A DNA stretch of 64,000 nt. It comes from Vitis vinifera (lineage: Eukaryota > Streptophyta > Magnoliopsida > Vitales > Vitaceae). The notes below the pieces were generated by a model. The model was not told where the DNA came from and searched no databases. It was given only the letters and a program-made list of their open reading frames with translations. Shown here one piece after another: positions 28,366 to 29,259 of this stretch (position 1 is its first letter; every line of letters starts with the position of its first letter). The position numbers and the translations under genes are program-made. The stretch covers positions 24,112,001 through 24,176,000 of the forward strand of contig NC_081820.1 of the NCBI RefSeq assembly GCF_030704535.1. Reading direction: 5' to 3'.

Positions 28366-29259
28366 TCACACACTGCTCTTAATGGTAGAGCTATATCCAC
28401 TCTGATCATCATAGTACTTTGACCACAACATCACACCTCCATACTTGGGTGATGTCTTAATGACCGGAAGAATTTGAGAGGTCAACACATTGGGCGGAAT
28501 AAACCCGCTTCCGGCAGCTGCAGAGGCTGCTGGCAAACCCAAGAAGATCCGTGAATTTATCGATGAAGTCCACCGGTTCCATGAATTCAGAAGGTTAGTG
28601 GTGTTGCCAGAAGTATACTGGCATGGGGGATTGTTATAGAATTGCACCCAAACATTGTCAAAACGGCCTGTGTTAAGAGCAGTGCCCATGAACTTATCTG
28701 GGAATGGACACTGAGGGGCTGCAGTTAGGTATACCTTCCTTCCACGCTGACTGAAACCCGATAAGGCTCGAGCAAGGTTGTCCCAGTACTGGGTCGAACC
28801 GAGCAGGATGACAAAGTCTATGCCATCTAATACTGCATCACCTAATGGCCGAGACGATGATTGTCCTCCCAAGAAGTTGTTCCACAGATAGTTGGCTACG
28901 TTTTGGGCATCATCGGAAGAGGACAGAGAGTAACTTCCAATCGCACCACCTATAGAGAGCATGACCTTAACGCCTTGACTTTGGCAGTTACTTATGTCGG
29001 TACTGACGGAGGTGCAGCCATTGGAAGCAGAGTCGCAATGGCCTGCAAGGTTGATTTCAGGGGTCTGGCCATTCCCGAACTTGTTGAGGAAGGCTATGTT
29101 AACGTAGGAGTATTTTCCGGTGTTGCAGGTTTGGGTTAGGGTCCCTTCATTGCCGTTTTGGCCCCAGTAGATGGCGATGCCACCGGCATAAGTGGTCTGG
29201 AGGAAAGCTAGGACTGAGAGGGAGATGAGCAGAGGTGTGGATTGGGGGGTTCTGGCCAT
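28366..29259 (-). CDS. Class III chitinase-like protein, copy 3, catalytic residues replaced
   Basis: This complete 297-aa intron-less frame is collinear with copies 1 and 2. It has a signal peptide at 1-25, the [10 protein letters not shown] start, all six cysteines and the VWVQFY tyrosine. The GH18 motif reads DGIDFVIL instead of DGIDFDIE, so Asp150 is Val and the proton donor Glu152 is Leu (hevamine 125 and 127). Other changes are Gly to Ala in the SIGGA loop, Tyr to Asn in FDNVWV and a new NTT sequon. The frame has no stops or frameshifts despite these changes. Loss of the general acid should abolish hydrolysis. Plants use dead GH18 proteins as lectins, storage proteins or enzyme inhibitors (concanavalin B, narbonin, XIP-I), which is one possible role. 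The alternative is an early pseudogene. Confidence 0.93.

Follow-up and report, generated by a model that had tools for sequence, protein, structure and literature searches.

A grapevine class III GH18 gene with both catalytic acids replaced, beside two siblings with intact motifs

Here we describe copy 3, an intact class III GH18 gene of grapevine (Vitis vinifera) that carries valine and leucine where active class III chitinases carry a catalytic aspartate and glutamate, and that lies in a row with two siblings whose motifs are intact. From established GH18 chemistry it is near certain that the copy 3 protein cannot hydrolyse chitin. The reading we put forward, on which our own judgement is evenly balanced, is that copy 3 encodes a defence-induced, secreted, non-cutting glycan binder, resembling a chi-lectin, beside its active-motif siblings. 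Non-enzymatic GH18 proteins have long been known in plants as a class, and copy 3, as a plant GH18 protein without catalytic acids, is of a known kind; what is new is that this example is young, sits in a defence cluster, carries the promoter of a sibling whose motif is intact and goes by the label of a chitinase.

The copy 3 gene, its motif and its family

The window, which is the whole stretch of 64,000 nucleotides that was analysed, covers C16:24112001-24176000. It holds three class III GH18 genes, which follow one another on the minus strand within about 23 kb; each is a single intronless open frame, and copy 3 is 88-90% identical to its siblings. The features, in window coordinates, are as follows.

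6169..7062, minus strand: copy 1, intact motif DGVDFDIE, 297 amino acids, probably VIT_16s0050g02210 by gene order
15418..16311, minus strand: copy 2, intact motif DGIDFDIE, 297 amino acids, probably VIT_16s0050g02220, also by gene order
28366..29259, minus strand: copy 3, class III GH18 gene of 297 codons with both catalytic acids lost (open reading frame, hevamine alignment, Pfam)
29185..29259, minus strand: putative signal peptide of copy 3, residues 1-25 (alignment to mature hevamine, judged by eye)
28804..28827, minus strand: catalytic motif of copy 3, DGIDFVIL, residues 145-152 (codons and hevamine alignment)
28810-28812, minus strand: Val150 codon of copy 3
28804-28806, minus strand: Leu152 codon of copy 3
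28654..28665, minus strand: codons 199-202 of copy 3, with Leu199Arg and Tyr202Asn (codon comparison, alignment of C15 paralogs)
29260..29494, minus strand: proximal promoter of copy 3, approximate limits, near-identical to that of copy 1 (flank comparison)

Beyond the 3′ end of copy 3 lie tandem arrays rich in purines, their units about 92-149 bases long (window 26555-27319). Open frames at window 51365-52674 and 42094-42612 resemble, by eye, retrotransposon pieces, namely a LINE-type reverse transcriptase and a copia-type fragment.

A sequence-only reading of this DNA had described copy 3 as an intact 297-codon class III gene that keeps its signal peptide and six cysteines, and that description is borne out. 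The open reading frame and the codon comparison reveal no stop or frameshift, and by that measure copy 3 is not a pseudogene. The Pfam profile Glyco_hydro_18 (PF00704, cut-off 29.6 bits) matches all three copies above its cut-off, at 72.7 bits for copy 3, 83.5 for copy 2 and 82.4 for copy 1. Residues 26-297 align with hevamine, which places copy 3 in GH18 class III, and the six cysteines of the mature protein (C45, C75, C82, C92, C184 and C213) are invariant across the three copies in the alignment, so that by cysteine positions too it belongs to class III. The signal peptide is putative, having been judged by eye; with the cleavage site set by alignment to mature hevamine, the mature protein begins GGIAIYWGQ, as hevamine does. 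The alignment of copy 3 with its siblings is free of gaps, and no loop is lengthened or shortened.

At the motif, the codon for residue 150 is GAC in copies 1 and 2 and GTC in copy 3, and that for residue 152 is GAG in both siblings and CTG in copy 3, so that the glutamate was lost through two base changes in one codon and the neighbouring aspartate was lost as well, both as first read. The codon for residue 149 differs silently (TTC, TTC and TTT in copies 1, 2 and 3). Alignment to hevamine identifies the replaced residues as Asp125 and Glu127 in hevamine numbering, now valine and leucine, and neither position varies among the four intact C15 paralogs in the alignment (L004, L005, L006 and L008). 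The first description needs one amendment: the DGIDFDIE that it set against DGIDFVIL is the motif of copy 2, whereas copy 1 reads DGVDFDIE. Copy 3 thus lacks the DxxDxDxE motif of an active class III chitinase or lysozyme and, as a GH18 protein with its catalytic residues replaced, is by sequence a chitinase-like protein.

A whole-genome search with copy 3 as query (495.6 Mb, 21 contigs) returned 24 matches: the three window copies and others, whole or partial, on C15 and C14; C16 has none besides the trio. Open frames with intact motifs are found in copies 1 and 2, L004, L005, L006 and L008 and, read exon by exon, in the copies at 1492-2558 of L009 and 765-1665 of L010. The acids are lost from an open frame in copy 3 and in a two-exon gene at about 6226-7159 of L010 (DGVDFFIQ). 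Stops accompany the loss of the glutamate at about 2817-3697 of L009 (DGIDFDIV) and about 2977-4000 of L011 (DGIDFDIQ), L007 and L014 are interrupted and keep the motif, and L012 is rearranged with the motif region missing. Counted by eye, the acids are therefore lost in two of ten open copies, and the glutamate in two of the four interrupted copies that keep the motif region. Loss of the motif recurs in this family, both with and without decay. The class III-like DGVDFFIQ gene (C15 about 21765626-21766559) has a GT-AG intron and a signal-peptide-like start, and is 46% identical to copy 3 in exon 2.

Selection, the motif change and the promoter

A codon model written for this analysis was fitted to the three copies with 200 bootstrap replicates. 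Omega was 0.48 on the copy 3 branch and 0.64 on those of the siblings, without a significant difference (p = 0.57). With these three taxa, omega = 1 was rejected for copy 3 at p = 0.043, and at p = 0.036 when codons 149-152 were left out; bootstrapping gave this whole-branch estimate an interval from 0.24 to 1.02, and 3% of the 200 replicates reached at least 1. When L004-L006 were added as outgroups, omega for copy 3 was 0.48-0.50 across three topologies and the p values for omega = 1 were 0.040, 0.14 and 0.051 by topology, the value of 0.040 belonging to the best one, which joins copy 1 with copy 3, a pairing that also has 92/92 support. The dN/dS comparison that the sequence-only reading had proposed thus places copy 3 below 1 at marginal significance and does not set it significantly apart from copies 1 and 2. 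With omega below 1 there is no sign, at branch level, of positive selection on copy 3. In a small tree, in which the background branch is long, the chromosome 16 trio has an omega of 0.56 against 0.13 elsewhere.

The flanks supply a rate for insertions and deletions: 21 gaps over 153 mismatches, pooled from two overlapping comparisons, or 0.137 gaps per mismatch. At that rate 6.7-9.2 indels are predicted in the coding sequence and none is seen (P 0.0012-0.0001), which favours constraint over the whole branch of copy 3, not specifically after the loss of the acids. The unbroken frame, which had been taken as a further sign of selection, carries less weight. Neutral simulations stayed free of stops in 22%, 9% and 7% of runs at 37, 60 and 70 substitutions, and since 22% of runs with 37 substitutions remained open, the open frame alone is weak evidence.

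Four of the changes in copy 3 fall within 9 bp (coding positions 447, 449, 454 and 455), and the other 33 are spread over the gene. A cluster this dense among 37 randomly placed changes has P = 0.089. A single multi-base mutation could explain it, so there is no need to posit two separate hits in the codon, and the argument for selection drawn from the double change is weakened. Gene conversion was considered as a source of the motif and rejected, as no donor was found in the genome: the 21-base stretch around the motif matches exactly once, and with two mismatches at one place, C14:28300428, outside the family matches of the genome search. The earlier claim of selection accordingly holds in part. 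The absence of indels and the marginal rejection of omega = 1 speak for it, the lack of a significant difference in omega from the siblings (p = 0.57) speaks against it, and it is plausible that selection maintains a non-enzymatic role for copy 3.

The proximal promoter had also been described as kept, and comparison of the flanks with copy 1 confirms this. In the proximal promoter, copy 3 differs from copy 1 at 4 of 225 aligned sites and from copy 2 at 41 of 226; its 3′ flank differs from that of copy 1 at 30 of 271 sites (promoter against flank of copies 1 and 3, p = 2e-5). We scored the mosaic in 100-bp bins by the sites that group two copies against the third. Between -199 and 0, copy 3 groups with copy 1 (35 sites against 3); between -299 and -200 it groups with copy 2 (24 against 11); and in the coding sequence the counts are 15 against 25 (promoter versus coding sequence, p = 3e-7). 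The mosaic breaks near -200 to -235, which is consistent with gene conversion between the proximal promoters of copies 1 and 3; shared constraint is an alternative cause of the likeness. Under either cause, the promoter of copy 3 is nearly that of a sibling with an intact motif. A second partial copy of the chitinase promoter (82%) lies upstream of copy 1 at window about 7329-7450 (C16:24119329-24119450).

Catalysis, expression and competing explanations

In hevamine, Glu127 is the proton donor, and Asp125 and Tyr183 hold the N-acetyl group (PMC3662789). Valine and leucine at both acid sites leave no proton donor, hence the expectation that copy 3 should not hydrolyse. Much of the cleft is nevertheless kept: Tyr183 is retained, and 10 of the 13 catalytic or substrate-contacting hevamine residues named in PMC3662789 are unchanged, the other three being D125V, E127L and G81A. 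Alanine at hevamine position 81 also occurs in L006, where the motif is intact. The best PDB matches of copy 3, over the whole mature protein, are 1kr1 (488.6 bits) and wild-type hevamine (486.7 bits). The entry 1kr1 is a complex of hevamine with a chitin oligomer, and both hevamine and Chit33 with the two acids changed to alanine have been crystallised with chitin oligomers (PMC9323625), so loss of the acids need not abolish binding. With 10 of 13 residues kept, carbohydrate binding by copy 3 is plausible only.

There are 20 copy-3-specific residue changes, five of which (S23T, which lies in the signal peptide, both acids, L199R and Y202N) are at positions invariant in the C15 paralogs L004, L005, L006 and L008. 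Of the changes specific to copy 1, 5 of 15 hit such positions, and of those specific to copy 2, 2 of 8 do, so copy 3 has no excess of changes at conserved sites. Leu199Arg and Tyr202Asn may destabilise the fold. AlphaFold2 models of the three window copies had a mean pLDDT of 53.8, which is insufficient for judging the fold. Two scans of contigs from bacterial and archaeal genomes for relatives that would deepen the alignment found none, and an NCBIfam search gave no useful match.

Three chromosome 16 GH18 genes appear in print, VIT_16s0050g02210, 02220 and 02230 (PMC7565608 among others), variously labelled chitinase, acidic endochitinase, CHIB1 and GH18-domain protein. A MATE cluster at C16:22.76-22.78 Mb is a candidate for the published anthoMATE cluster, which includes VIT_16s0050g00910 and 00930, and if the two are the same then the order of gene numbers follows position, with 128 numbers over 1.34 Mb from the MATE cluster, or about 10.5 kb each. 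At C16:24.40 Mb an ABCC gene sits where this numbering predicts VIT_16s0050g02480 (25 numbers over 0.26 Mb, about 10.3 kb each). Its identity as VvABCC1, the gene of that number, is uncertain, as it shares 66% identity with the ABCC gene inside the window; C16:24360001-24500000 holds no other ABCC match. From gene order, then, copies 1, 2 and 3 are probably 02210, 02220 and 02230.

In the sap of vines with Pierce's disease, 02230, named a chitinase, was among the most increased proteins, with 7 peptides and a log2 fold change of 4.37 in one pipeline and 9 peptides and a tabulated 8.41 in the other; 02210 had 6 peptides and a change of 6.03 in one pipeline, just one of the two pipelines detected 02220, and indistinguishable proteins were grouped (PMC7565608). 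The text of that paper gives 8.76 for 02230, a value that in the table belongs to a PR-1 row. Elsewhere 02230 is upregulated (PMC6764689) or listed (PMC8961545), 02210 and 02220 are hub genes (PMC8245497), and 02220 is reported in PMC4973223 and PMC12652587. Among seven proteins compared, copy 1 has 25 candidate tryptic peptides (16 unique) and copy 3 has 15 (9 unique), so copy 1 would be easier to reconcile with the report of 9 peptides for 02230. Copy 3 is probably expressed. Six peptide strings of copy 3 were not found in the literature, and neither were six control strings from copies 1 or 2 or shared among copies, which makes that search uninformative. No description of motif loss in a grape chitinase was found among titles, the opening lines of abstracts and passages on the chromosome 16 genes.

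The Arabidopsis gene At5g24090 is named as the counterpart of 02230 and 02210 (PMC7565608). Its product LYS1 is induced by infection and cuts both chitin and peptidoglycan, and either too little or too much of it hurts Arabidopsis immunity, for which the authors invoke fragment size (PMC4103680). Our reading is that copy 3, a young defence-type paralog predicted to have lost the hydrolysis of chitin and of peptidoglycan alike, most likely still folds and would hold GlcNAc chains in its cleft, acting in the apoplast and xylem. Its rise on infection we infer from gene order and the papers above, and its binding of glycans in the plant, with selection for that binding, we likewise only infer. A likely consequence would be competition with the LYS1-type siblings for chitin and peptidoglycan, limiting the trimming of fragments; a co-induced holder that does not cut could shift the balance of fragment sizes, or could coat or tag microbial surfaces. 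Copy 3 might even tune immunity: with the proximal promoter that it shares with copy 1, it would be co-induced with its LYS1-type siblings, hold glycans uncut and keep the fragments on which immune receptors depend from being trimmed too far, a proposal we regard as unlikely; if true, it would make copy 3 a host counterpart of the sequestration seen with MpChi.

The serious rival, which we consider quite possible, is early decay: activity was lost recently, perhaps through one complex mutation, and drift followed, with the open frame simply inherited, the promoter refreshed by gene conversion, and no function of its own even if the gene is transcribed. Four changes in 9 bp around the motif are what such a mutation could leave, omega is not significantly lower in copy 3 than in its siblings (p = 0.57), the trio as such evolves fast (0.56, with 0.13 elsewhere), stops are present in two other family copies that lack the glutamate, and the changes at L199 and Y202 are non-conservative. 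Decay is, however, harder to square with a gene free of indels and stops, with the marginal rejection of omega = 1, with the lack of excess changes at invariant sites, and with the report in sap of the protein of 02230, the probable copy 3 gene (PMC7565608). The motif itself could in principle be an assembly or consensus error, as one assembly was examined and the 21-base stretch occurs exactly once there; four separate base changes, one of them silent, with the frame kept and 33 further changes spread over the gene, make this highly unlikely.

Copy 3 might instead have a protein as its target, binding a pathogen's chitinase inhibitor or protease, or inhibiting a microbial glycosidase, and so shield or help its active siblings, with glycan binding incidental. 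Precedents exist in XIP-I and XAIP (PMC3662789) and in the XIP-type proteins of coffee (PMC3045311), all GH18 class III relatives with inhibitor roles, and in PsXLP1 of Phytophthora, an inactive paralog that serves its active sister as a decoy (PMC8960721); at 88-90% identity, the surface of copy 3 is also near that of its siblings. We think this unlikely, for the target is hypothetical, and the loops of copy 3 are of the same length as the siblings' whereas XIP-I uses an elongated loop (PMC3662789).

If copy 3 is VIT_16s0050g02230, grapevine studies have been counting a non-cutting protein among the defence chitinases, and because such a protein cannot cut chitin, the level of 02230 is no proxy for chitinase activity. 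One inactive and two active-motif copies, 88-90% identical and within about 23 kb, form a natural pair for the question of cutting, binding and their ratio in immunity.

Relation to known GH18 proteins

Hevamine, the class III chitinase/lysozyme of the rubber tree, is active, and copy 3 differs from it in lacking both catalytic acids. The hevamine of 1kr1 is changed at the same two positions; there the changes are engineered, to alanine at both, whereas copy 3 has valine and leucine by nature. The tamarind chi-lectin TCLL (4b15), a class III relative, is, like copy 3, non-polar at both acid positions (Ala128 and Val130) and has no chitinase activity (PMC3662789). With an identity of 36% to hevamine, TCLL no longer has Tyr183 and its cleft is remodelled, whereas copy 3 retains that tyrosine together with most of the cleft.

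Concanavalin B, narbonin, XIP-I and XAIP are plant GH18 proteins without chitinase activity (PMC3662789), and the sequence-only reading was fair in comparing copy 3 with the first three. These are old, divergent lineages with altered loops, whereas copy 3 is a young tandem duplicate of unchanged length; narbonin, moreover, keeps its glutamate and copy 3 does not. MpChi, an inactive fungal GH18 effector, binds chitin oligomers and alters chitin signalling (PMC8960721). It is fungal, serves the pathogen and carries the substitutions E167Q and M238L, and its binding was tested, whereas copy 3 is known from its sequence. LYS1, finally, is class III, secreted and induced by infection; being active, it is the counterpart in activity of copies 1 and 2, not of copy 3.
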